Notes under the pieces: model-generated | The model's database searches: none | The model's input: the letters and a program-made list of their open reading frames with translations, nothing else | Told to the model about the DNA's origin: nothing | Shown: positions 1-46,723 of the stretch, piece by piece | Numbering within the stretch: position 1 is the stretch's first letter | How the letters are laid out: the number at the start of each line of letters is the position of its first letter | Made by a program: the position numbers and the translations under genes | Origin: Cunninghamella blakesleeana | Taxonomy: Eukaryota > Mucoromycota > Mucoromycetes > Mucorales > Cunninghamellaceae | DNA: 64,000 nucleotides | Direction: 5' to 3' | Assembly (NCBI GenBank): GCA_017871115.1 | Contig: JAFCIZ010000002.1 | Coordinates: 1,385,501 to 1,449,500, forward strand

Positions 1-1524
1 TTTAAAATATTTAGATCTCCGGTTTTTATTAAGGTTTTAATCAGCGATGTCTATTCGAACAGTTTTTTCCATAATGTGATTATTAAGTATTTTCGTTATG
101 TTTTCCCATTTTACTTGCTATTATTGGTTCGGAAAGTATAGAATAATAATTAATAACGTAAATATATCCCGAAAAACTATTTAAACCATTATTTTTCAAT
201 TTAATTATTTTTATTTTCTTTTACTTTTCTTTATCACCTCAATTAAACTACCTATTCACTTTATCCATTAATCAAGATGCCTCAAGCTTTACCTGTAGAT
301 GTCCAAAATGATTTAAAAGCAATGTTGATCAATGAAATACCATATAGTATCATTTCTAGTAGACTTAACTTATCAAAAAGTACCATTAGCTCTTATTCTA
401 ATAAGTGGTTCCCTAATAGAAACCGTAATCTTGGTGGAAGACCTATTGTTGTAGCCGACAAAACTAAATCTCTCATCAAAAAAATGGTTCTATCAGGTCA
501 ACTACTAACTGCCACGGATGTCCAAAGGATGTTATCGAACCTAGGATATGAATTGACAGTCAAAACATCGGCTAATGTTTTAAAATCTATGAATTTTTTT
601 TCTGCCATCAAAAAAAAGAAGCCACTTTTGTCAAAAAAGCATCAACAGGACCGTTTAAACTTTGCAAAAAGATACAGAAATTGGACTATTGATGACTGGA
701 GACGTGTAGTATTCTCTGACGAAACCAAAATAAACGTCTGGGGGTCTGATGGCTGCAAATATTATTGGTCAAGACCAGGTGACAAATTGAAGCCTCATCA
801 TCTTGATTTAACAGTCAAGCATGGGGGTGGAAATATAATGATGTGGGGTTGTATAACTCATTCTGGACCAGGATATGCATGTCAAGTTTACGATGGGACT
901 ATGAAAGCTAAGGATTATCAAGAAATTTTGAACACTACATTCAGAGATAGCATGGAATACTATGGTTTTGACTGGTCAGAGTATTATTTTCAACAGGATA
1001 ACGACCCAAAACATAAGGCAACATCTACTATTGAATGGATGCGACAAGAAAAGATAAAAATACTCGAAGATTGGCCAGCACAAAGTCCTGACTTAAACCC
1101 AATTGAACACGTGTGGCACCATTTGAAGTTAAAGCTTAGTGAATATGGTACCAGGGCTAAAGGTGTTCACGAATTATGGGAAAGAATTGATGTAGAATGG
1201 AATTCTTTTACACAGGAACAATGTAGAAGATACATAGATAGTATGCCTGATCGTATTCAAGCTGTATTGGATGCTAAAGGCGGACCAACAAGATATTAGT
1301 TAATTAATTAGAAATTGGAAAAAACTGTTCGAATAGACATCGCTGTTTAAAACCTTAATAAAAACCGGAGATCTAAATATTTTAAACTCAAACTTTATAA
1401 GATATTTATAAATAAGCTATTCTATTACTATTCTAAGTTTCATAAGGATTGATAAAGTATTGATAGAGTAATTAAAGAATAAAGTCAAATTTTGAAAACG
1501 TCCGAACAGTTTTTTCTCCCACTG
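1..1524 (+). mobile_element. Tc1/mariner element A1 (variant of family A), 5' end outside window
   Basis: The right end closes with the family A terminus ...CCCACTG followed by TA at 1525-1526. Full family A copies are 1662 bp, so about 138 bp of the left end lies before base 1. Inner binding sites (near 58-72 and 1320-1335) and the right outer site (near 1500-1515) read CTGTTCGA or CTGTTCGG, whereas the other three A copies have CTGTTCAT at every site. The element sits inside the gypsy-1 pol region, whose frame is open immediately after the TA. Confidence 0.93.
277..1299 (+). CDS. Tc1-type transposase, family A (variant A1), 340 aa, intact
   Basis: Cut-and-paste DNA transposase acting in the nucleus on its own inverted ends. 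An N-terminal helix-turn-helix region (about residues 8-45) is followed by a second DNA-binding region with GRP motif near residue 54, then the catalytic core. Catalytic residues visible: D in FSDETKINVWG, D in QQDNDPKH, E in DLNPIEHVW. By my count 35 residues separate the last D and E (DD35E), one more than classical Tc1. Full family length, no stop or frameshift, so potentially active. The recognition helix (residues 31-39, LSKSTISS) differs from all other A copies (LSKGVISN) while nearly everything else is the same. The start matches the conserved MPQALPV start of the family. Confidence 0.95.
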   Translation: MPQALPVDVQNDLKAMLINEIPYSIISSRLNLSKSTISSYSNKWFPNRNRNLGGRPIVVADKTKSLIKKMVLSGQLLTATDVQRMLSNLGYELTVKTSANVLKSMNFFSAIKKKKPLLSKKHQQDRLNFAKRYRNWTIDDWRRVVFSDETKINVWGSDGCKYYWSRPGDKLKPHHLDLTVKHGGGNIMMWGCITHSGPGYACQVYDGTMKAKDYQEILNTTFRDSMEYYGFDWSEYYFQQDNDPKHKATSTIEWMRQEKIKILEDWPAQSPDLNPIEHVWHHLKLKLSEYGTRAKGVHELWERIDVEWNSFTQEQCRRYIDSMPDRIQAVLDAKGGPTRY

Positions 1525-2387: not shown

Positions 2388-4067
2388 CAGTGGCTTCCAG
2401 AAGTGATCGAATGTTTTCGTTTTTTTTATAAAATCAATTGTATCAATAAAATTTACTATTTAACCATGCATAATTTTTATATCAATCGAAAGCTCTATTG
2501 ATTGGCTTTCATATGAATATATTTATATCCATTTCCATATTTGGGTTGCGGAGTAAATGGTGTTTGAAAATTATTGGCACATTCGATCACTTGTGTTGCG
2601 ATACCAAAAAAATTAAAAATATAATTAAAACACAATATAAATGGTACAAAAAGTCTTTATTTAATAATCAATCCAATAGCCCTTTGCTTTTATTACATCA
2701 TTACAACGTTTAGGCATTGTTTCTATCACTTTTTTACAATCTTCAGCCGTGATTGTATTCCATACTTCCTGAGTACGGTCCCACAAGTCTAACATCCCTT
2801 TTGGTGGTGTAGTATAGTTGCTAAAGAGCCTGTTTTTCACTAAAGCCCATATATTCTCAATGGGATTCAAGTCAGGCGACTGTGCTGGCCATTCCATTAC
2901 CGAAAAAGGCTGGTTTTCCAAGTATTCTTTGACTGTTTTGGCTGTGTGTTTTGGATCGTTATCTTGTTGAAAGACCATTTTGCTTTGATCCATGCCATAC
3001 CAGTCAAATGTATGCACTAATTCATGCTCCAAAATAGCTTGGTAGAGTTCCTTATCTAAAACTGTATCAATTTTAGTCATGTAACCCGGGCCATCGTACG
3101 AAATGCATCCCCAAACCATTATGTTTCCACCACCATGTTTGACTGTTTGCTTGACATGTTTAGGTTGAAGCTTTTCCTCGGCCCTTTTCCAAGCATAGCG
3201 GCGTCCATCCGATCCAAAACGATTAATTTTGGTTTCGTCTGACCAAATGACACGACTCCAGTCATCTAAAGTCTAATCTTTGTGTGCTTTTGCCCAAGCT
3301 AAACGAGCTTTAACATTTTTGGCACTGAGGAGAGGTTTCTTTGGCTTGACAAAGGACCCTAATCCTTTTTCTTTAAGTGCTCTACGGACTGTTTGAGCAC
3401 TTATATCGATTTCCAAATGTTCCTTTAATGCCTTCTGCACCTCAGTAGCATTACTTTTACCTCCTTTGGTCACTTGATGTACACAAAAGGACTTGTCTCT
3501 ACCAGTGAGCTTGGATACAGCACCACCAACAGCCATAGGAATCTCCCGTTCAAGACCTGCAGAGATATTGTGAACTGTTCCATAGCTAACACCAACATCC
3601 TTAGCTACTTGACGCATAGATTTACCTTGTTTGAGAAGGTTAATGACTTGGTTCTTAATGGAATTTTGAATAGGACGCATGTTGATAACAGATCACTAAA
3701 AAATGGACAATATTGATATAAAAAATATATAAAAAATAGAATATTAGCTATAGATTTGAACTAAGAAAGTGCGAAACAGGTTTATTCTAACATTTTATAG
3801 GTTATTTTATACTCTATTATTGTTTTATTACAAGTTGTGGTATTTTTTTGGCATCGCAACACAAGTGATCGAATGTACCAATAATTTTCAAACACCATTT
3901 ACTCCGCAACCCAAATATGGAAATGCATATAAATATATTCACAAGAAAGCCAATCAACAGGGCTTTCGATTGATGTATAAATCATGCATGGTTGAATAGT
4001 AAGTTTTATTGATACAATTGATTTTATAAAAAAAACGAAAACATTCGATCACTTCTGGAAGCCACTG
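2388..4067 (-). mobile_element. Tc1/mariner element C1 (family C, variant specificity), 1680 bp
   Basis: Ends CAGTGGCTTCC / GGAAGCCACTG with TA at 2386-2387 and 4068-4069. It interrupts the gypsy-1 RT frame, which is restored in phase without it. All four binding sites (two outer, two inner, near 2403, 2585, 3867 and 4045) read GTGATCGAA instead of the TGTTCGAA found in C2, C3 and C4. Confidence 0.96.
2661..3680 (-). pseudogene. Family C transposase with in-frame TAG (codon 136), variant recognition helix
   Basis: A 339-codon Tc1 transposase interrupted by TAG at 3273-3275 where the intact copy has Trp (the DWTLDDW motif just before the first catalytic Asp). Upstream part: residues 1-135 with helix-turn-helix. 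Downstream part, still open: FQQDNDPKH and NPIENIW catalytic motifs with 34-residue spacing. Apart from the stop there is no damage. Residues 33-39 read YGTVHNI, against CTTVHKY in the other C copies, and this is the only protein difference from C2 in the first 135 residues. The same TAG occurs in C2 and in both tandem partial copies (40616-42647), so it was copied by transposition or recombination rather than arising here. Confidence 0.92.
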
Positions 4068-4069
4068 TA

Positions 4070-5266
4070 GATCGTCTATGTAATCTTGGAATAATCAAAC
4101 CTGCAAATACACCTTATACTGCTCCTATTATTTTGGTTAAAAAGAAAAACGGTGAATATAGAATGGTAGTAGATTACAGAAAACTGAATGCCCAAACTAA
4201 AGTAGACGCTTACCCACTACCAAGAATTGATGATCTTATTGATGAACTAGGAACTTCAAGTATATTCTCTGCATTAGATCTTAGAGCTGGCTTTCATCAA
4301 GTACCTTTACATGATAATAGTAAAGAATTAACTGGTTTTGTTACAAAATTTGGAACATATCAATATGAAATGCTACCGATGGGGTTAGTTAATAGTCCTG
4401 CTACTTTCCAACGTTTTATAGATATATGTTTTAAATCTATGATGAATAGATGTTTAGTGGCATACATAGATGATCTCAATGTACACTCTAGTAATATTGA
4501 ACAACATTTATCTGATCTTGAAGAATTATTTAAATGTGCAAGACTTGGTGGATTATTATTCAACATAGAAAAATGTGTATTTTTTAAAGATGAACTAAAA
4601 TTTCTTGGTTATATTATCACCAAAGATGGAATAAAAACAGATCCAGCAAAAATAGAAAAAGTAAAAGATTATCCACAACCAACAACAATTAAACAGATAA
4701 GAGGATTTATTGGACTAGCATCTTATTATAGACGTTTCATACAAAACTTTGCAGCAATAGCAAGACCATTACATGATGTTACAAAGACAAAAAATAAATC
4801 ACCATGGACTGATATAACAACTAAATCATTTGAATTATTAAAACAAAAACTGACAGAAGCACCTATTCTTAAAAGGGCAGATCATAGTAAACCATTTATC
4901 ATAGTATGTGATGCATCAATAGAAGGTTTAGGTTGCGTTCTATCACAATTAGATGATGATGAACAAGAACATCCTGTAGTATATGCAAGTCGTGGATTAA
5001 AACAAAGTGAAAGAAATTATAGTGCTACTAAATTGGAATGTCTAGCTCTCATATGGAGTCTACAAATGTTTAGACCCTACCTATTAGGAAAAAAATTTAC
5101 TGTAATTTCTGATCATTCTCCTTTGCGTTGGCTGATAAAGGCTCCTAATCCTACTGGTATGGTGGCACGATGGATTACTTACTTGGCTGACTATGAATTT
5201 GAAATACAATATCGCAGTGGAAAGAAACAACAATCTGCAGACTTTCTTTCAAGACTTGGTTATTAA
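4070..5266 (+). pseudogene. gypsy-1 reverse transcriptase and RNase H (continuation of pol)
   Basis: Copies element RNA into DNA and degrades the RNA strand. Recognisable in order: LVKKKNGEYRMVVDYRKLN, the SALDLRAGFHQ motif, LPMGLVNSPATFQR, the catalytic box YIDD (VAYIDDLNVHS), then RNase H with D in VCDASIEG, E in ATKLECLAL, D in ISDHSPLRWL. The frame ends LSRLGY followed by TAA and a poly-A run. It joins in phase to 1527-2387 once C1 is removed. Integrase is not fused here, unlike the usual gypsy Pol; it is a separate frame 921 bp downstream. Catalytic residues look intact, but the frame has no independent start at its true beginning. Confidence 0.93.
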
Positions 5267-6187: not shown

Positions 6188-7507
6188 ATGGATCAGCAAA
6201 TTATAAATAACATTAAAGAATATCTCACAACTTTAAAAATTCCTGAAGACATAACAATAAAAATGAAAAGATACTTACAACGAAACTCACATAATTTTAT
6301 TGTTCGAAACAATAAACTATATAAATTTAATATCAAACATCAAACTCTAAGACAAGTTTTAAATAAGCAAGAAGCTCTGGAAGCACTGTACATGTATCAT
6401 CAACATCCTTTAGGTGGACATATTGGTTATCACAATACATTATATAAATTATCAATAAGATATTATTGGGATTCTATGGCTAAAGATATACAAATATATA
6501 TAAAAAAATGTTCAAGATGTCAAACGGTAGGTCCTAAAAAATTAAATGAATTTCTCTATCCTATACCAGTTAAATCGAAACCATTTGAACAATGGGGCTT
6601 GGATGTTAAACATGTACCTACATCAAAAGGTGGATACAGATATATTATTGCCGGTATAGATTATCTAACTAAATGGGTAGAAGCTCGTGCTTTACGTTAT
6701 CAAACAACATCAGAAGTTGCCTTATTTATTTATGAAGAAATAATATGTCGTCATGGTACACCTCATCTTATAATTACGGATAATGGCAAACCCTTTATTA
6801 GTGATTTAATAAAAAAGGTTTGTAATCAATATAATATACATCATAATACAATATCAGTCGGAAACTCTCAAGCCAATGGATTGATTGAAAGGTTTAATTC
6901 TACACTTGGAACTATAATAAAAAAGGTTACATCAACTGAAAAATCAATATGGGATCAATATCTTCCTTCGGTTCTATTCGCGTATCGATCCATCAAACAA
7001 TCTTCAACACAACAATCACCATTTTATTTAACTTATGGATATGACGTTAAAACTCCGTTTGATCAACATGCCAAACCTATTGATTTTCATACTTATAATT
7101 TTGATACACAATTAAAATTAAGGACAAAAAAGGAAATTCTAGCTCTCAATCAGATAAGACAATCAGCATCAAAAATGATAGAAAAATCACAAATGAACCA
7201 GAAATTGGCGATCGATAAAAAAGTCTTAAATAATAATAGAGAATGGAAACCTGCCTTCAGAATCGGTGACATTGTAACGTTATATAATGGAATAAAAGCA
7301 AATTCTTGGTCTGGGAAAATATCTGACATGTGGCAAGGAAAATATATCATACACCAATCTCTTGGGAAAGGTACTTATATGATTAAACCACTAGATACAA
7401 CAAAGACAAGGATAAAGCGTGTTCATGGTAATAGGCTCAAAATTTTACAATTACCTGATGTAAATTGGAATGTACATGTTTATAAAACCTATGGATTGGA
7501 AATATAA
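6188..7507 (+). CDS. gypsy-1 integrase as a stand-alone frame, 439 aa, intact
   Basis: Inserts retrotransposon cDNA into the genome. N-terminal zinc-binding HHCC: H in YHQHPLGGHIGYH and the pair CSRCQ (about residues 75-115). Catalytic core: D in QWGLDVKHV, D in IITDNGKPF, E in NGLIERFNSTL. The C-terminal part has GDIVTLYNG and a GPY/F-like stretch WQGKYIIHQSLGKGTYMIKP, as in gypsy integrases. The ATG directly follows a 19-A run and the stop is followed by another A run. In known Ty3/gypsy elements integrase is normally fused to RT-RH, so either the spacer is spliced out, or integrase is made from its own mRNA or internal initiation; the sequence alone does not decide. The copy in gypsy-2 is nearly identical. 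Confidence 0.93.
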   Translation: MDQQIINNIKEYLTTLKIPEDITIKMKRYLQRNSHNFIVRNNKLYKFNIKHQTLRQVLNKQEALEALYMYHQHPLGGHIGYHNTLYKLSIRYYWDSMAKDIQIYIKKCSRCQTVGPKKLNEFLYPIPVKSKPFEQWGLDVKHVPTSKGGYRYIIAGIDYLTKWVEARALRYQTTSEVALFIYEEIICRHGTPHLIITDNGKPFISDLIKKVCNQYNIHHNTISVGNSQANGLIERFNSTLGTIIKKVTSTEKSIWDQYLPSVLFAYRSIKQSSTQQSPFYLTYGYDVKTPFDQHAKPIDFHTYNFDTQLKLRTKKEILALNQIRQSASKMIEKSQMNQKLAIDKKVLNNNREWKPAFRIGDIVTLYNGIKANSWSGKISDMWQGKYIIHQSLGKGTYMIKPLDTTKTRIKRVHGNRLKILQLPDVNWNVHVYKTYGLEI

Positions 7508-17793: not shown

Positions 17794-19473
17794 CAGTGGC
17801 TTCCAGAAGTGTTCGAATGTTTTCGTTTTTTTTATAAAATCAATTGTATCAATAAAACTTATTATTTAACCATGCATGATTTATACATCAATCGAAAGCC
17901 CTATTGATTGGCTTTCATATGAATATATTTATATGCATTTCCATATTTGGGTTGCGGAGTAAATGGTGTTTGAAAATTATTGGCACATTCGAACAGTTGT
18001 GTTGCGATGCCAAAAAAATACCACAACTTGTAATAAAACAATAATAGAGTATAAAATAACCTATAAAATGTTAGAATAAACCTGTTTCGCACTTTCTTAG
18101 TTCAAATCTATAGCTAATATTCTATTTTTTATATATTTTTTATATCAATATTGTCCATTTTTTAGTGATCTGTTATCAACATGCGTCCTATTCAAAATTC
18201 CATTAAGAACCAAGTCATTAACCTTCTCAAACAAGGTAAATCTATGCGTCAAGTAGCAAAGGATGTTGGTGTAAGTTGTACAACTGTCCACAAGTACTCT
18301 GCAGGTCTTGAACGGGAGATTCCTATGGCTGTTGGTGGTGCTGTATCCAAGCTCACTGGTAGAGACAAGTCCTTTTGTGTACATCAAGTGACCAAAGGAG
18401 GTAAAAGTAATGCTACTGAGGTGCAGAAGGCATTAAAGGAACATTTGGAAATCGATATAAGTGCTCAAACAGTCCGTAGAGCACTTAAAGAAAAAGGATT
18501 AGGGTCCTTTGTCAAGCCAAAGAAACCTCTCCTCAGTGCCAAAAATGTTAAAGCTCGTTTAGCTTGGGCAAAAGCACACAAAGATTAGACTTTAGATGAC
18601 TGGAGTCGTGTCATTTGGTCAGACGAAACCAAAATTAATCGTTTTGGATCGGATGGACGCCGCTATGCTTGGAAAAGGGCCGAGGAAAAGCTTCAACCTA
18701 AACATGTCAAGCAAACAGTCAAACATGGTGGTGGAAATATAATGGTTTGGGGATGCATTTCGTACGATGGCCCGGGTTACATGACTAAAATTGATACAGT
18801 TTTAGATAAGGAACTCTACCAAGCTATTTTGGAGCATGAATTAGTGCATACATTTGACTGGTATGGCATGGATCAAAGCAAAATGGTCTTTCAACAAGAT
18901 AACGATCCAAAACACACAGCCAAAACAGTCAAAGAATACTTGGAAAACCAGCCTTTTTCGGTAATGGAATGGCCTGCACAGTCACCTGACTTGAATCCCA
19001 TTGAGAATATATGGGCTTTGGTGAAAAACAGACTCTTTAGCAACTATACTACACCACCAAAAGGGATGTTAGACTTGTGGGACCGTACTCAGGAAGTATG
19101 GAATACAATCACGGCTGAAGATTGTAAAAAAGTAATAGAAACAATGCCTAAACGTTGTAATGATGTAATAAAAGCAAAGGGCTATTGGATTGATTATTAA
19201 ATAAAGACTTTTTGTACCATTTATATTGTGTTTTAATTATATTTTTAATTTTTTTGGTATCGCAACACAACTGTTCGAATGTGCCAATAATTTTCAAACA
19301 CCATTTACTCCGCAACCCAAATATGGAAATGCATATAAATATATTCATATGAAAGCCAATCAATAGGGCTTTCGATTGATGTATAAATCATGCATGGTTA
19401 AATAATAAGTTTTATTGATACAATTGATTTTATAAAAAAAACGAAAACATTCGAACACTTCTGGAAGCCACTG
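17794..19473 (+). mobile_element. Tc1/mariner element C2 (family C), 1680 bp
   Basis: Standard family C ends; TA at 17792-17793 and 19474-19475; the DIRS gag frame is restored without it. All four binding sites read TGTTCGAATG. Confidence 0.96.
18181..19200 (+). pseudogene. Family C transposase with in-frame TAG (codon 136)
   Basis: A 339-codon transposase, identical in protein to C1 except for the recognition helix (here VSCTTVHKYS), with the same Trp-to-TAG change at 18586-18588. Both halves remain open and the catalytic residues are unchanged. The catalytic half could only be made by read-through or re-initiation. This copy is therefore best seen as non-autonomous, mobilised by an intact C transposase such as that of C4. 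Confidence 0.93.
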
Positions 19474-38935: not shown

Positions 38936-40615
38936 CAGTGGCTTCCAGAAGTGTTCGAATGTTTTCGTTTTTTTTATAAAATCAATTGTATCAATAAAAC
39001 TTATTATTTAACCATGCATGATTTATACATCAATCGAAAGCCCTATTGATTGGCTTTCATATGAATATATTTATATGCATTTCCATATTTGGGTTGCGGA
39101 GTAAATGGTGTTTGAAAATTATTGGCACATTCGAACAGTTGTGTTGCGATGCCAAAAAAATACCACAACTTGTAATAAAACAATAATAGAGTATAAAATA
39201 ACCTATAAAATGTTAGAATAAACCTGTTTCGCACTTTCTTAGTTCAAATCTATAGCTAATATTCTATTTTTTATATATTTTTTATATCAATATTGTCCAT
39301 TTTTTAGTGATCTGTTATCAACATGCGTCCTATTCAAAATTCCATTAAGAACCAAGTCATTAACCTTCTCAAACAAGGTAAATCTATGCGTCAAGTAGCA
39401 AAGGATGTTGGTGTAAGTTGTACAACTGTCCACAAGTACTCTGCAGGTCTTGAACGGGAGATTCCTATGGCTGTTGGTGGTGCTGTATCCAAGCTCACTG
39501 GTAGAGACAAGTCCTTTTGTGTACATCAAGTGACCAAAGGAGGTAAAAGTAATGCTACTGAGGTGCAGAAGGCATTAAAGGAACATTTGGAAATCGATAT
39601 AAGTGCTCAAACCGTCCGTAGAGCACTTAAAGAAAAAGGATTAGGGTCCTTTGTCAAGCCAAAGAAACCTCTCCTCAGTGCCAAAAATGTTAAAGCTCGT
39701 TTAGCTTGGGCAAAAGCACACAAAGATTGGACTTTGGATGACTGGAGTCGTGTCATTTGGTCAGAGGAAACCAAAATTAATCGTTTTGGATCGGATGGAC
39801 GCCGCTATGCTTGGAAAAGGGCCGAGGAAAAGCTTCAACCTAAACATGTCAAGCAAACAGTCAAACATGGTGGTGGAAATATAATGGTTTGGGGATGCAT
39901 TTCGTACGATGGCCCGGGTTACATGACTAAAATTGATACAGTTTTAGATAAGGAACTCTACCAAGCTATTTTGGAGCATGAATTAGTGCATACATTTGAC
40001 TGGTATGGCATGGATCAAAGCAAAATGGTCTTTCAACAAGATAACGATCCAAAACACACAGCCAAAACAGTCAAAGAATACTTGGAAAACCAGCTTTTTT
40101 CGGTAATGGAATGGCCAGCACAGTCGCCTGACTTGAATCCCATTGAGAATATATGGGCTTTAGTGAAAAACAGGCTCTTTAGCAACTATACTACACCACC
40201 AAAAGGGATGTTAGACTTGTGGGACCGTACTCAGGAAGTATGGAATACAATCACGGCTGAAGATTGTAAAAAAGTGATAGAAACAATGCCTAAACGTTGT
40301 AATGATGTAATAAAAGCAAAGGGCTATTGGATTGATTATTAAATAAAGACTTTTTATACCATTTATATTGTGTTTTAATTATATTTTTAATTTTTTTGGT
40401 ATCGCAACACAACTGTTCGAATGTGCCAATAATTTTCAAACACCATTTACTCCGCAACCCAAATATGGAAATGCATATAAATATATTCATATGAAAGCCA
40501 ATCAATAGGGCTTTCGATTGATGTATAAATCATGCATGGTTAAATAATAAGTTTTATTGATACAATTGATTTTATAAAAAAAACGAAAACATTCGAACAC
40601 TTCTGGAAGCCACTG
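38936..40615 (+). mobile_element. Tc1/mariner element C3 (family C), 1680 bp, head of a tandem array
   Basis: Complete family C ends; TA at 38934-38935 and 40616-40617. Right of it the sequence jumps into the middle of another C (AGTGCTCAAACAGTCC), i.e. C3 abuts a C truncated at an internal TA. Confidence 0.95.
39323..40342 (+). CDS. Family C transposase, open frame but first catalytic Asp changed to Glu
   Basis: 339 aa without a stop (Trp at codon 136), helix-turn-helix VSCTTVHKYS. The first catalytic motif reads WSEETKINRFG instead of WSDETK (GAG for GAC near 39767), so the DDE triad is EDE. In known DDE transposases replacing this Asp, even by Glu, removes most activity; loss of function is therefore expected though unproven. 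One further change: Leu for Pro in ENQLFSVMEW. Second and third catalytic residues are normal (QQDNDPKH, NPIENIW). Confidence 0.92.
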   Translation: MRPIQNSIKNQVINLLKQGKSMRQVAKDVGVSCTTVHKYSAGLEREIPMAVGGAVSKLTGRDKSFCVHQVTKGGKSNATEVQKALKEHLEIDISAQTVRRALKEKGLGSFVKPKKPLLSAKNVKARLAWAKAHKDWTLDDWSRVIWSEETKINRFGSDGRRYAWKRAEEKLQPKHVKQTVKHGGGNIMVWGCISYDGPGYMTKIDTVLDKELYQAILEHELVHTFDWYGMDQSKMVFQQDNDPKHTAKTVKEYLENQLFSVMEWPAQSPDLNPIENIWALVKNRLFSNYTTPPKGMLDLWDRTQEVWNTITAEDCKKVIETMPKRCNDVIKAKGYWIDY

Positions 40616-41631
40616 TAAGTGCTCAAACAGTCCGTAGAGCACTTAAAGAAAAAGGATTAGGGTCCTTTGTCAAGCCAAAGAAACCTCTCCTCAGTGCCAA
40701 AAATGTTAAAGCTCGTTTAGCTTGGGCAAAAGCACACAAAGATTAGACTTTAGATGACTGGAGTCGTGTCATTTGGTCAGACGAAACCAAAATTAATCGT
40801 TTTGGATCGGATGGACGCCGCTATGCTTGGAAAAGGGCCGAGGAAAAGCTTCAACCTAAACATGTCAAGCAAACAGTCAAACATGGTGGTGGAAATATAA
40901 TGGTTTGGGGATGCATTTCGTACGATGGCCCGGGTTACATGACTAAAATTGATACAGTTTTAGATAAGGAACTCTACCAAGCTATTTTGGAGCATGAATT
41001 AGTGCATACATTTGACTGGTATGGCATGGATCAAAGCAAAATGGTCTTTCAACAAGATAACGATCCAAAACACACAGCCAAAACAGTCAAAGAATACTTG
41101 GAAAACCAGCCTTTTTCGGTAATGGAATGGCCTGCACAGTCACCTGACTTGAATCCCATTGAGAATATATGGGCTTTGGTGAAAAACAGACTCTTTAGCA
41201 ACTATACTACACCACCAAAAGGGATGTTAGACTTGTGGGACCGTACTCAGGAAGTATGGAATACAATCACGGCTGAAGATTGTAAAAAAGTAATAGAAAC
41301 AATGCCTAAACGTTGTAATGATGTAATAAAAGCAAAGGGCTATTGGATTGATTATTAAATAAAGACTTTTTGTACCATTTATATTGTGTTTTAATTATAT
41401 TTTTAATTTTTTTGGTATCGCAACACAACTGTTCGAATGTGCCAATAATTTTCAAACACCATTTACTCCGCAACCCAAATATGGAAATGCATATAAATAT
41501 ATTCATATGAAAGCCAATCAATAGGGCTTTCGATTGATGTATAAATCATGCATGGTTAAATAATAAGTTTTATTGATACAATTGATTTTATAAAAAAAAC
41601 GAAAACATTCGAACACTTCTGGAAGCCACTG
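40616..41631 (+). repeat. Partial family C element, first 1016-bp tandem unit
   Basis: Runs from an internal TA of the transposase gene to the 3' end of the element. It carries the TAG-type sequence (GATTAGACT) and an open C-terminal frame at 40900-41358. Followed immediately by a second copy of the same length. Confidence 0.95.
40900..41358 (+). pseudogene. Family C transposase, C-terminal fragment
   Basis: 152 codons with the second and third catalytic residues only; helix-turn-helix region missing, and the TAG upstream separates it from the rest of the gene. Identical to the C2 C-terminal half. Confidence 0.93.
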
Positions 41632-42647
41632 TAAGTGCTCAAACAGTCCGTAGAGCACTTAAAGAAAAAGGATTAGGGTCCTTTGTCAAGCCAAAGAAAC
41701 CTCTCCTCAGTGCCAAAAATGTTAAAGCTCGTTTAGCTTGGGCAAAAGCACACAAAGATTAGACTTTAGATGACTGGAGTCGTGTCATTTGGTCAGACGA
41801 AACCAAAATTAATCGTTTTGGATCGGATGGACGCCGCTATGCTTGGAAAAGGGCCGAGGAAAAGCTTCAACCTAAACATGTCAAGCAAACAGTCAAACAT
41901 GGTGGTGGAAATATAATGGTTTGGGGATGCATTTCGTACGATGGCCCGGGTTACATGACTAAAATTGATACAGTTTTAGATAAGGAACTCTACCAAGCTA
42001 TTTTGGAGCATGAATTAGTGCATACATTTGACTGGTATGGCATGGATCAAAGCAAAATGGTCTTTCAACAAGATAACGATCCAAAACACACAGCCAAAAC
42101 AGTCAAAGAATACTTGGAAAACCAGCCTTTTTCGGTAATGGAATGGCCTGCACAGTCACCTGACTTGAATCCCATTGAGAATATATGGGCTTTGGTGAAA
42201 AACAGACTCTTTAGCAACTATACTACACCACCAAAAGGGATGTTAGACTTGTGGGACCGTACTCAGGAAGTATGGAATACAATCACGGCTGAAGATTGTA
42301 AAAAAGTAATAGAAACAATGCCTAAACGTTGTAATGATGTAATAAAAGCAAAGGGCTATTGGATTGATTATTAAATAAAGACTTTTTGTACCATTTATAT
42401 TGTGTTTTAATTATATTTTTAATTTTTTTGGTATCGCAACACAACTGTTCGAATGTGCCAATAATTTTCAAACACCATTTACTCCGCAACCCAAATATGG
42501 AAATGCATATAAATATATTCATATGAAAGCCAATCAATAGGGCTTTCGATTGATGTATAAATCATGCATGGTTAAATAATAAGTTTTATTGATACAATTG
42601 ATTTTATAAAAAAAACGAAAACATTCGAACACTTCTGGAAGCCACTG
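41632..42647 (+). repeat. Partial family C element, second 1016-bp tandem unit
   Basis: Appears identical to 40616-41631. Ends at the normal C terminus, followed by TA (42648-42649) and the gypsy-2 third frame. Confidence 0.95.
41916..42374 (+). pseudogene. Family C transposase, C-terminal fragment (second copy)
   Basis: Same 152-codon fragment as at 40900, without visible difference. Confidence 0.93.
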
Positions 42648-43081: not shown

Positions 43082-44743
43082 CAGTGGGGGAAAAAACTGT
43101 TCATACGTTTTCAAAATTTGACTTTGTTCTTTAATTACTCTATCAATACTTTATCAATCCTTATGAAACTTAGAATAGTAATAGAATAGCTTATTTATAA
43201 ATATATTATAAAGTTTGAGTTTAAAATATTTAGATCTCCGGTTTTTATTAAGGTTTTAAACAGCGATGTCCATATGAACAGTTTTTTCCATAATGTGAAT
43301 ATTAAGCATTTCCGTTCTGTTTGCCTACTTTACCTTTTATTATTGGTTCGGAAAGTATAGAATAATAATTACTAATGTAAATGCATTCCGAAAAACTATT
43401 TAAACCATTATTTTTCAGTTTATTTTTTTTTATTTTCTTTCACTTTTCTTTATCACCTCAATTAAACTACCTATTCACTTTGTCCATTAATCAAGATGCC
43501 TCAAGCTTTACCTGTAGACGTCCAAAATGATTTAAAATCAATGTTGATCAATGAAATACCATACAGTATCATTTCTAGTAGACTTGGTTTATCAAAAGGT
43601 GTCATTAGTAACTACTCTAGTAAGTGGTTCCCTAATAGAAACCGTAATCTTGGTGGAAGACCTATTGTTGTAGCCGACAAAACTAAATCTCTTATCAAAA
43701 AAATGGTTCTATCAGGTCAACTACTAACTGCCACGGATGTCCAAAGGATGTTATCGAACCTAGGATATGAATTGACAGTCAAAACATCGGCTAATGTTTT
43801 AAAATCTATGAATTTTTTTTCTGCTATTAAAAAAAAGAAGCCACTTTTGTCAAAAAAGCATCAACAGGACCGTTTAAACTTTGCAAAAAGATACAAAAAC
43901 TGGACTATTGATGACTGGAGACGTGTAGTATTCTCTGACGAAACCAAAATAAACGTCTGGGGGTCTGATGGCTGCAAATATTATTGGTCAAGACCAGGTG
44001 ACAAATTGAAGCCTCATCATCTTGATTTAACAGTCAAGCATGGGGGTGGAAATATAATGATGTGGGGTTGTATAACTCATTCTGGACCAGGATATGCATG
44101 TCAAGTTTACGATGGGACTATGAAAGCTAAGGATTATCAAGAAATTTTGAACACTACATTCAGAGATAGCATGGAATACTATGGTTTTGACTGGTCAGAG
44201 TATTATTTTCAACAGGATAACGACCCAAAACATAAGGCAACATCTACTATTGAATGGATGCGACAAGAAAAGATAAAAATACTCGAAGATTGGCCAGCAC
44301 AAAGTCCTGACTTAAACCCAATTGAACATGTGTGGCACCATTTGAAGTTAAAGCTTAGTGAATATGGTACCAGGGCTAAAGGTGTTCACGAATTATGGGA
44401 AAGAATTGATGTAGAATGGAATTCTTTTACACAGGAACAATGTAGAAGATACATAGATAGTATGCCTGATCGTATTCAAGCTGTATTGGATGCTAAAGGC
44501 GGACCAACAAGATATTAGTTAATTAATTAGAAATTGGAAAAAACTGTTCATATGGACATCGCTGTTTAAAACCTTAATAAAAACCGGAGATCTAAATATT
44601 TTAAACTCAAACTTTGTAATATATTTATAAATAAGCTATTCTATTACTATTCTAATTTTCATAAGGATTGATAAAGTATTGATAGAGTAATTAAAGAACA
44701 AAGTCAAATTTTGAAAACGTATGAACAGTTTTTTCCCCCACTG
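43082..44743 (+). mobile_element. Tc1/mariner element A4 (family A), 1662 bp, complete
   Basis: Uninterrupted copy; TA at 43080-43081 and 44744-44745, within the gypsy-2 spacer. Each end is about 210 bp of inverted repeat with an outer and an oppositely oriented inner CTGTTCAT site. Confidence 0.97.
43496..44518 (+). CDS. Tc1-type transposase, family A (A4), 340 aa, intact
   Basis: The best family A reference in the window: uninterrupted element, full frame, helix-turn-helix RLGLSKGVISNYSSKW, catalytic FSDETKINVWG, QQDNDPKH, NPIEHVW (DD35E), C-terminal SMPDRI motif. Identical in protein to the A3 fragment over 320 residues. Potentially autonomous. Confidence 0.96.
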   Translation: MPQALPVDVQNDLKSMLINEIPYSIISSRLGLSKGVISNYSSKWFPNRNRNLGGRPIVVADKTKSLIKKMVLSGQLLTATDVQRMLSNLGYELTVKTSANVLKSMNFFSAIKKKKPLLSKKHQQDRLNFAKRYKNWTIDDWRRVVFSDETKINVWGSDGCKYYWSRPGDKLKPHHLDLTVKHGGGNIMMWGCITHSGPGYACQVYDGTMKAKDYQEILNTTFRDSMEYYGFDWSEYYFQQDNDPKHKATSTIEWMRQEKIKILEDWPAQSPDLNPIEHVWHHLKLKLSEYGTRAKGVHELWERIDVEWNSFTQEQCRRYIDSMPDRIQAVLDAKGGPTRY

Positions 44744-45043: not shown

Positions 45044-46723
45044 CAGTGGCTTCCAGAAGTGTTCGAATGTTTTCGTTTTTTTTATAAAATCAATTGTATC
45101 AATAAAACTTATTATTTAACCATGCATGATTTATACATCAATCGAAAGCCCTGTTGATTGGCTTTCATATGAATATATTTATATGCATTTCCATATTTGG
45201 GTTGCGGAGTAAATGGTGTTTGAAAATTATTGGTACATTCGAACAGTTGTGTTGCGATGCCAAAAAAATACCACAACTTGTAATAAAACAATAATAGAGT
45301 ATAAAATAACCTATAAAATGTTAGAATAAACCTGTTTCGCACTTTCTTAGTTCAAATCTATAGCTAATATTCTATTTTTTATATATTTTTTATATCAATA
45401 TTGTCCATTTTTTAGTGATCTGTTATCAACATGTGTCCTATTCAAAATTCCATTAAGAACCAAGTCATTAACCTTCTCAAACAAGGTAAATCTATGCGTC
45501 AAGTAGCAAAGAATGTTGGTGTAAGTTGTACAACTGTCCACAAGTACTCTGCAGGTCTTGAACGGGAGATTCCTATGGCTGTTGGTGGTGCTGTATCCAA
45601 GCTCACTGGTAGAGACAAGTCCTTTTGTGTGCATCAAGTGACCAAAGGAGGTAAAAGTAATGCTACTGAGGTGCAGAAGGCATTAAAGCAACATTTGGAA
45701 ATCGATATAAGTGCTCAAACAGTCCGTAGAGCACTTAAAGAAAAAGGATTAGGGTCCTTTGTCAAGCCAAAGAAACCTCTCCTCAGTGCCAAGAATGTTA
45801 AAGCTCGTTTAGCTTGGGCAAAAGCACACAAAGATTGGACTTTAGATGACTGGAGTCGTGTCATTTGGTCAGACGAAACCAAAATTAATCGTTTTGGATC
45901 GGATGGACGCCGCTATGCTTGGAAAAGGGCCGAGGAAAAGCTTCAACCTAAACATGTCAAGCAAACAGTCAAACATGGTGGTGGAAACATAATGGTTTGG
46001 GGATGCATTTCGTACGATGGCCCGGGTTACATGACTAAAATTGATACGGTTTTAGATAAGGAACTCTACCAAGCTATTTTGGAGCATGAATTAGTGCATA
46101 CATTTGACTGGTATGGCATGGATCAAAGCAAAATGGTCTTTCAACAAGATAACGATCCAAAACACACAGCCAAAGCAGTCAAAGAATACTTGGAAAACCA
46201 GCCTTTTTCGGTAATGGAATGGCCTGCACAGTCACCTGACTTGAATCCCATTGAGAATATATGGGCTTTGGTGAAAAACAGACTCTTTAGCAACTATACT
46301 ACACCACCAAAAGGGATGTTAGACTTGTGGGACCGTACTCAGGAAGTATGGAATACAATCACGGCTGAAGATTGTAAAAAAGTGATAGAAACAATGCCTA
46401 AACGTTGTAATGATGTAATAAAAGCAAAGGGCTATTGGATTGATTATTAAATAAAGACTTTTTATACCATTTATATTGTGTTTTAATTATATTTTTAATT
46501 TTTTTGGTATTGCAACACAACTGTTCGAATGTGCCAATAATTTTCAAACACCATTTACTCCGCAACCCAAATATGGAAATTCATATAAATATATTCATAT
46601 GAAAGCCAATCAATAGGGCTTTCGATTGATGTATAAATCATGCATGGTTAAATAATAAGTTTTATTGATACAATTGATTTTATAAAAAAAACGAAAACAT
46701 TCGAACACTTCTGGAAGCCACTG
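45044..46723 (+). mobile_element. Tc1/mariner element C4 (family C), 1680 bp, complete
   Basis: Family C ends with TA at 45042-45043 and 46724-46725, inside gypsy-2 integrase. All four sites are of the TGTTCGAATG type. Confidence 0.96.
45431..46450 (+). CDS. Tc1-type transposase, family C (C4), 339 aa, the only fully intact C gene here
   Basis: Trp at codon 136 (no TAG) and WSDETKINRFG with the normal first Asp; QQDNDPKH and NPIENIW follow with 34-residue spacing. Helix-turn-helix VSCTTVHKYS. Private changes: Cys for Arg at residue 2, Asn for Asp at 28, Gln for Glu near 91, Ala for Thr in TAKAVKEY. Among family C copies in the window it alone could supply active transposase, and its recognition helix matches the ends of C2 and C3 but not those of C1. 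Confidence 0.95.
   Translation: MCPIQNSIKNQVINLLKQGKSMRQVAKNVGVSCTTVHKYSAGLEREIPMAVGGAVSKLTGRDKSFCVHQVTKGGKSNATEVQKALKQHLEIDISAQTVRRALKEKGLGSFVKPKKPLLSAKNVKARLAWAKAHKDWTLDDWSRVIWSDETKINRFGSDGRRYAWKRAEEKLQPKHVKQTVKHGGGNIMVWGCISYDGPGYMTKIDTVLDKELYQAILEHELVHTFDWYGMDQSKMVFQQDNDPKHTAKAVKEYLENQPFSVMEWPAQSPDLNPIENIWALVKNRLFSNYTTPPKGMLDLWDRTQEVWNTITAEDCKKVIETMPKRCNDVIKAKGYWIDY

Follow-up and report, generated by a model that had tools for sequence, protein, structure and literature searches.

The window analyzed here is a 64,000-nucleotide stretch (G000:C2:1385501-1449500) of a 31.9-Mb, 12-contig genome. It holds four copies of a transposon that we call family C (C1, C2, C3, and C4, each 1,680 bp long and flanked on both sides by TA) and two copies of a second family, family B, whose element is 1,662 bp long and whose protein is about 42% identical to that of family C. 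Copies elsewhere are labeled by contig and position (e.g., C3:217328), so that C1, C2, C3, and C4 alone always denote window copies, and ref positions are coordinates along the 1,680-bp family C element. The features are listed below in window coordinates; the helix classes (H1 to H3) and site types (A and T) are described in the next section.

2388..4067, minus strand: C1, family C Tc1-like element, 1,680 bp, H2 helix, A-type sites
2388..2613: left terminal inverted repeat of C1, 226 bp, inverted copy
3842..4067: right terminal inverted repeat of C1, 226 bp, inverted copy
2404..2411, plus strand: outer left site of C1, TGATCGAA, A-type
2582..2589, minus strand: inner left site of C1, TGATCGAA
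3866..3873, plus strand: inner right site of C1, TGATCGAA
4044..4051, minus strand: outer right site of C1, TGATCGAA
2661..3680, minus strand: transposase gene of C1, 339 codons, with TAG at codon 136 (3273-3275)
3565..3588, minus strand: helix tract of C1, codons 31-39, H2 type VSYGTVHNI, 10 differences from H1
17794..19473, plus strand: C2, H1 helix (tract 18273-18296), T-type sites, same TAG as C1
38936..40615, plus strand: C3, H1 helix (tract 39415-39438), T-type sites, 339-amino-acid frame open, Glu at the first catalytic Asp
45044..46723, plus strand: C4, H1 helix (tract 45523-45546), T-type sites, 339-amino-acid frame open
43082..44743, plus strand: family B copy, GV helix type (tract about 43586-43615), outer sites TGTTCATACG, inner sites TGTTCATATG
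1..1524, plus strand: family B copy, ST helix type (tract about 367-396), left end beyond the window, right outer site TGTTCGGACG, inner sites TGTTCGAATA

C1 adjoins a retroelement open reading frame with reverse transcriptase and RNase H domains (window 4133-5266; Pfam), and a second open reading frame nearby (window 6188-7507) has integrase domains (Pfam). Left pieces of family C, 1,016 bp long, lie in tandem at window 40616-42647.

Each family C element carries four core sites (ref 17, 195, 1479, and 1657), an outer and an inner one in each 226-bp end, and its transposase has N-terminal helix-turn-helix domains and a DDE domain (Pfam). The residues D148, D240, and E275 (D-D-34-E) are found in 34 of the 49 near-full copies in the genome, the other 15 having E148. 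Judged by these domains, motifs, and ends, we assign family C to the Tc1/mariner group as a Tc1-like (DD34E) element with an IR/DR (Sleeping Beauty-like) end layout.

Relative to the H1 copies, C1 has exactly 10 differences in the helix tract, at window 3565-3588: four are silent (codons 31, 32, 35, and 36), and six are replacing changes in codons 33, 34, 38, and 39 (Y, G, N, and I for C, T, K, and Y). All four sites read TGATCGAA in C1 and TGTTCGAA in C2 to C4. These observations agree with the initial annotation of the window. Differences private to C1 in comparison with C2 to C4 are not evenly spread; each of them lies in one of the 226-bp ends or in the helix tract (to ref 1216), and the sequence between has none. 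The ends of C1 also differ outside the 8-bp sites, which the initial annotation did not mention, at ref 65, 69, 85, 90, 93, 107, 142, 203, 1478, 1555, 1557, 1607, and 1612. The nonsense codon said to be common to C1 and C2 is TAG at codon 136 in both, but it is polymorphic, being absent from C3 and C4 and present in 10 of the 49 near-full copies (9 H1 and 1 H2; 8 of 31 haplotypes).

Helix classes and terminal sites across the genome

The genome was searched with the whole element, with the backbone, with a conserved stretch beside the helix (54 matches), and with an end (100 of 118 matches listed, so that end-only fragments may be missing from the family C set). The best 40 of 124 and 40 of 129 candidates were scored in the whole-element and backbone searches, respectively, and 119 of 212 in a further search; pieces of less than 200 bp were dropped. 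At least 65 family C copies or fragments were mapped in this way. Ten of the 65 pieces are without the helix and were excluded from helix counts, and the 16 that are not near-full were excluded from haplotype tests. The helix tract, readable in 55 copies, falls into three classes: 42 copies are H1 (VSCTTVHKYS), 8 are H2 (seven VSYGTVHNIS and one VSYRTVHNIS, with Arg34), and 5 are H3 (VGYGTVQKYS). C1, which had been taken for a single switched copy, belongs to a class of eight.

Helix and site types do not combine freely. H1 pairs with T-type sites (TGTTCGAA), and H2 and H3 pair with A-type sites (TGATCGAA). The match of recognition helix and all four sites that had been read from the window extends to 46 of the 49 near-full copies, namely, 37 H1 copies with four T-type sites, 6 H2 copies with four A-type sites (the Arg34 copy included), and 3 H3 copies with four A-type sites. 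The three near-full exceptions are C3:217328 (an H1 gene with an open frame and four A-type sites), C8:2650 (H1; left end A, right end T), and C10:858874 (H3; left end T, right end A); a truncated copy outside the 49, C10:653295, combines H1 with a left end of A type. Within an end, the outer and inner sites are always of one type (115 of 115 ends). When the near-full copies are reduced to 31 distinct haplotypes, the left site and the helix combine as T-H1 in 19, T-H2/H3 in 1, A-H1 in 2, and A-H2/H3 in 9, and the right site and the helix do so in 20, 0, 1, and 10, respectively (Fisher P values of 2.5e-5 and 2.5e-7, which are nominal because the copies share ancestry). In the Arg34 copy (C1:3751023; Arg34 for Gly34, split by an insertion), all four sites read TGATCAAA, the same site base having been altered four times over.

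Open, unsplit 339-codon frames with D, D, and E occur naturally for H1, H2, and H3. At residue 148, the position of the first catalytic Asp, 12 H1, 2 H2, and 1 H3 of the 49 near-full copies have Glu instead; the gene at window 39323-40342 is one of them. An identical set of seven copies, one of them split by an insertion, carries Glu148; either this residue is tolerated or such copies have moved in trans.

The H3 tract is mosaic-like (e.g., G000:C3:230368), with codons 33 to 36 resembling H2, codons 31, 38, and 39 resembling H1, and private changes in codons 32 and 37. Since H3 looks mosaic, exchange may also happen inside the helix tract. Family C is nested in family C at the same place (about ref 1011-1016) in G000:C1:1209841-1213202 and C3:168010-171371, one host being H1 and the other H3. 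Near the start of its contig, G000:C2:21177-36383 is a tandem array of four near-identical family C copies at intervals of about 4.5 kb; three of them adjoin a family D copy.

A matched change of helix and sites recurs in family B, for which 24 pieces were compared (the partial matches C3:333627, C1:3760900, and C1:3758132 were left out) and 21 have the helix. Of these 21, 11 have the helix type GV..N and 10 have ST..S. The outer sites are TGTTCATACG with GV and TGTTCGGACG with ST, and inner sites are TGTTCATATG and TGTTCGAATA, respectively; the corresponding site motifs are ATAC/ATATG and GGAC/GAATA. Wherever the helix can be read (21 of 21 copies), it is matched by the sites at every readable end. 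Of the 27 fixed differences between the two types, 10 lie in the helix tract (8 replacing and 2 silent) and 10 in the four sites; the remainder are one beside the left outer site (position 30), five at 242-256, and one at 612.

In five other families (18, 8, 19, 17, and 15 copies found), codons 33 to 35 are invariant, except in one family F copy with a stop. The pattern search behind these counts allowed two mismatches in the flanks, so that diverged subfamilies could be missed, and codons 33 to 35 alone were seen in families E, F, and G; chance matches were set aside in one family (2 of 10) and in another (13 of 32; the reversed control pattern gave 21). Because these five families are invariant and both variable families show matched sites, helix variation is not a general background.

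Differentiation of helix, ends, and backbone

A comparison of 39 pure H1 copies with the 8 H2 copies yielded 21 fixed differences, 11 in the helix tract (1178-1216) and 10 in the ends (left, 19, 69, 93, 200, and 203; right, 1478, 1481, 1555, 1557, and 1662), and none in the 949-bp backbone (ref 227-1175). When the ends are mirrored, the fixed positions common to both are exactly 19, 200, and 203, in or beside the outer and inner sites. The 5 H3 copies show 13 fixed differences from H1, of which 8 fall in the helix and the other 5 in the right end; a mismatched copy leaves the left end with none. H2 and H3 have 8 fixed differences, two of which (1048 and 1049) are in the backbone. Mean backbone divergence is 0.94% within H1, 0.89% within H2, and 1.01% between them, and mean helix divergence is 0 within H1, 0.83% within H2, and 33.3% between; whole ends differ by 4.0 to 4.6%.

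When differentiation by helix class (Kst) is measured, the helix scores 0.755 and the four sites score 0.46 to 0.76. The stretches that lie between the sites of an end give 0.35 and 0.51, codons 1 to 30 give 0.21, the leader from the start codon to the right end gives 0.05 (reached by 25 of 2,000 permutations), and the backbone gives 0.011 (reached by 385 of 2,000 permutations). At least 17 recombination events are required outside the ends and the helix tract. Correlation with the left site (r2) is at most 0.24 at every position of ref 229-1093, 0.62 at the helix, and 0.74 at the right outer site. What had been called an otherwise frozen backbone is thus a shuffled pool. The 949-bp backbone is not differentiated between H1 and H2, whereas the ends are differentiated as a whole rather than at the sites only. 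In family B the backbone is partly differentiated (Kst of 0.36), which makes that family a weaker case for free exchange.

Among the 24 variable residues of the family C transposase, those fixed between H1 and H2 are 33, 34, 38, and 39 and those fixed between H1 and H3 are 32, 33, 34, and 37. On the sequences compared, we conclude that the matched helix-site specificity is real and recurrent and that the frozen backbone gives way to specificity islands in a recombining element, in which the helix would serve as the reader of the sites.

Putative contact residues and explanations for the match

A profile of the relatives matches the Tc3 DNA-binding domain (1u78; E value of 4e-6; span 13-133), the Sleeping Beauty (SB) RED domain (5unk; 0.001), more weakly the SB PAI domain (2m8e/6urs; 0.03 to 0.04), and also the SB catalytic domain. 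In the weakly scored PAI alignment, with SB numbering from His19, family C residue n corresponds to SB residue n+3, so that residues 33, 34, 37, and 38 align with SB R36, S37, Q40, and T41. A docking model described in a passage of PMC11754664 positions six helix-3 residues in the major groove, and these four are among them. Passages of PMC7827188 state that PAI reads a core found in all four repeats, that RED contacts DNA at the outer repeats only, and that all four repeats are needed; hence, if the PAI helix changes, all four sites have to change with it. By analogy, the change of four sites seen alongside the helix change would fit this requirement.

The resemblance extends to the ends, which in SB and other IR/DR Tc1-like transposons are about 220 bp long and have outer and inner repeats with a shared core read by PAI (PMC7827188, in the same passages). 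Unlike family C, SB-type elements have their specificity between related subfamilies ascribed there to the RED subdomain at a later step. In family C, the end tips (ref 1-18) are invariant in the ends compared, no RED-region residue among the 24 variable residues compared separates H1 from H2, and residue 82 separates H2 from H3 only (Arg in 5 of 5 H3 copies, Gln in 7 of 7 H2 copies read, and mixed in H1). Tc3 (1u78) shares two helix-turn-helix domains with family C but has short ends without the IR/DR arrangement, as a passage of PMC7827188 describes.

The variants also suggest which residues read which bases. Among the replaced residues, H2 and H3 share only Tyr33 and Gly34 in comparison with H1, and both have A-type sites, so that residues 33 and 34 are the likely readers of site base 19. 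Residue 34 may in addition read base 22, since Arg34 goes with a change at base 22 and the family B change at bases 22 and 23 includes the residue aligned with 34. A residue-base code across families (residue 35 versus site base 22) was considered and rejected, being broken by the Arg34 copy and by family F.

Our preferred explanation, which we consider probable, is that old-looking specificity classes, each with a helix and four sites that match, share a recombining backbone and that selection on self-sufficient copies keeps the match. The first helix-turn-helix of family C would read the core motif that recurs at the outer and inner sites of both ends. Its classes are H1 with TG-T-TCGAA, H2 and H3 with TG-A-TCGAA, and the one Arg34 copy with TGATC-A-AA; in each, the helix residues and all four sites go together, presumably because one transposase must bind all four. 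Binding would differ between classes, which presumably would not cross-mobilize one another. The silent changes in the tract and its 33% divergence suggest that the classes are old; the remainder of the element would since have been exchanged among them by recombination or gene conversion. Exchanges that separate helix from sites would rarely be kept because the element would then no longer be a source of its own transposase, and selection would act on self-sufficient master copies.

An alternative, which we regard as unlikely, dispenses with selection and invokes linkage by descent: two older subfamilies came together, conversion homogenized the middle of the element, and the ends, out of its reach, and the helix, too mismatched, kept their partners. 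Differentiation of the ends as a whole, including the stretches between sites, is in keeping with this alternative, and neutral conversion was simulated under the assumption of uniform conversion along the element. Outer sites stayed linked to the helix only when the ends were out of reach, helix conversion was strongly suppressed (by 90 to 99%), and crossovers were few or absent, as in 49 of 60 runs at 99% suppression with a 100-bp tract and no crossover; the exception was one of 60 runs without suppression that also kept the link. In the same uniform-conversion model, however, the inner sites were lost, and full linkage of the outer and inner sites survived at both ends in 0 of 720 runs, compared with the 115 of 115 real ends whose sites agree. 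Exchange between ends is evident from copies whose two ends differ in type (A and T), and the leader beside the right end is barely differentiated; both count against linkage by descent. For uniform conversion, we favor selection because the neutral runs that keep the outer link lose the inner sites.

Some evidence also weighs against a match kept by selection. Trans mobilization is likely because copies with the stop or Glu148 are numerous, and defective copies are probably common (the Glu148 set of seven; TAG in 8 of 31 haplotypes). If transposase acted purely in trans, the helix and ends of one copy would not need to match, which counts against our explanation, as do the three near-full mismatches, the differentiation of whole ends, the backbone Kst of family B, and the retention of the outer-site/helix link when neutral runs suppress conversion of the helix and place the ends beyond its range. 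If copies also move in trans, a kept match would mean selection for self-sufficient founders with their own working gene or a cis preference.

The initial annotation had favored replacement of a short tract; a second alternative on these lines is a single recent replacement of the tract and both ends in one ancestor of C1, later spread by transposition. C1, C3:325671, and C10:855000 are indeed close (0 to 3 backbone differences), but H2 sits on diverse backbones: C1:3772596, an H2 copy, has an H1 copy as its nearest relative (4 backbone differences), its nearest H2 copy being 11 differences away. H3 and the Arg34 copy are further classes, and a donor of the H2/H3 helix sought in another family was not found at ≤3 mismatches, 13 of 13 pattern matches falling in family C. 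We therefore find such an event very improbable and consider replacement in C1 alone less likely than an older lineage with an exchanged backbone. Least credible of all is coincidence of mutations or of chimeric repeat copies, for although repeats are hard to assemble and the three mismatched copies could be chimeras, chimeras would weaken the match rather than create it, the match is present in two distantly related families, TA lies on both sides of all 9 family C copies with inspected flanks, and codons 33 to 35 are invariant in the copies found of five other families save the one with a stop.

A single transposase has to suit four sites, and many relatives keep the old ends; how a transposon shifts its recognition specificity under these conditions is, to our knowledge, an open question. 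The step may be directly measurable here because two families supply natural matched and mismatched versions only a few residues and bases apart; why a copy keeps its own helix and ends matched if transposase acts in trans is a testable puzzle. The pattern in two families of one genome looks like jumping genes splitting into separate kinds. On a broader reading we are evenly divided: transposon families might hold specificity types as a maintained polymorphism, with one-helix/four-site lock-and-key islands kept by selection on a freely recombining common backbone and arising repeatedly in one genome, which would amount to transposon speciation with ongoing gene flow.

Divergence of mariner elements offers a comparison. 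A passage of PMC4161770, citing Lampe et al. 2001, reports that mariner repeats differing by ≥16% lost binding in vitro and that lineages coexist in one genome; as may be the case in family C, changed ends and transposases let several lineages share a genome. Unlike in mariner, the difference over whole family C ends (4.0 to 4.6%) does not reach the size reported there to abolish binding, and the lineages share one recombining backbone. Passages of PMC3687335 treat, among other things, titration and cross-mobilization. Among the matches listed from open-licence PMC literature, titles and abstract openings mentioned no matched helix-site classes on a recombining transposon backbone.

Among the best 120 protein database relatives listed for family B, those with a species name are mostly from Rhizopus. 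One of the best 120 listed, P0121, is 96% identical to family B and has the ST helix; because proteins in the database are clustered at 90% identity, helix variants of one family may be hidden there. Two clues bear on the ancestral helix type of family C: P0002 (70% identical) has KY at residues 38 and 39, like H1, and in a count of 16 close sequences that includes the window copy, 12 have I at residue 39.
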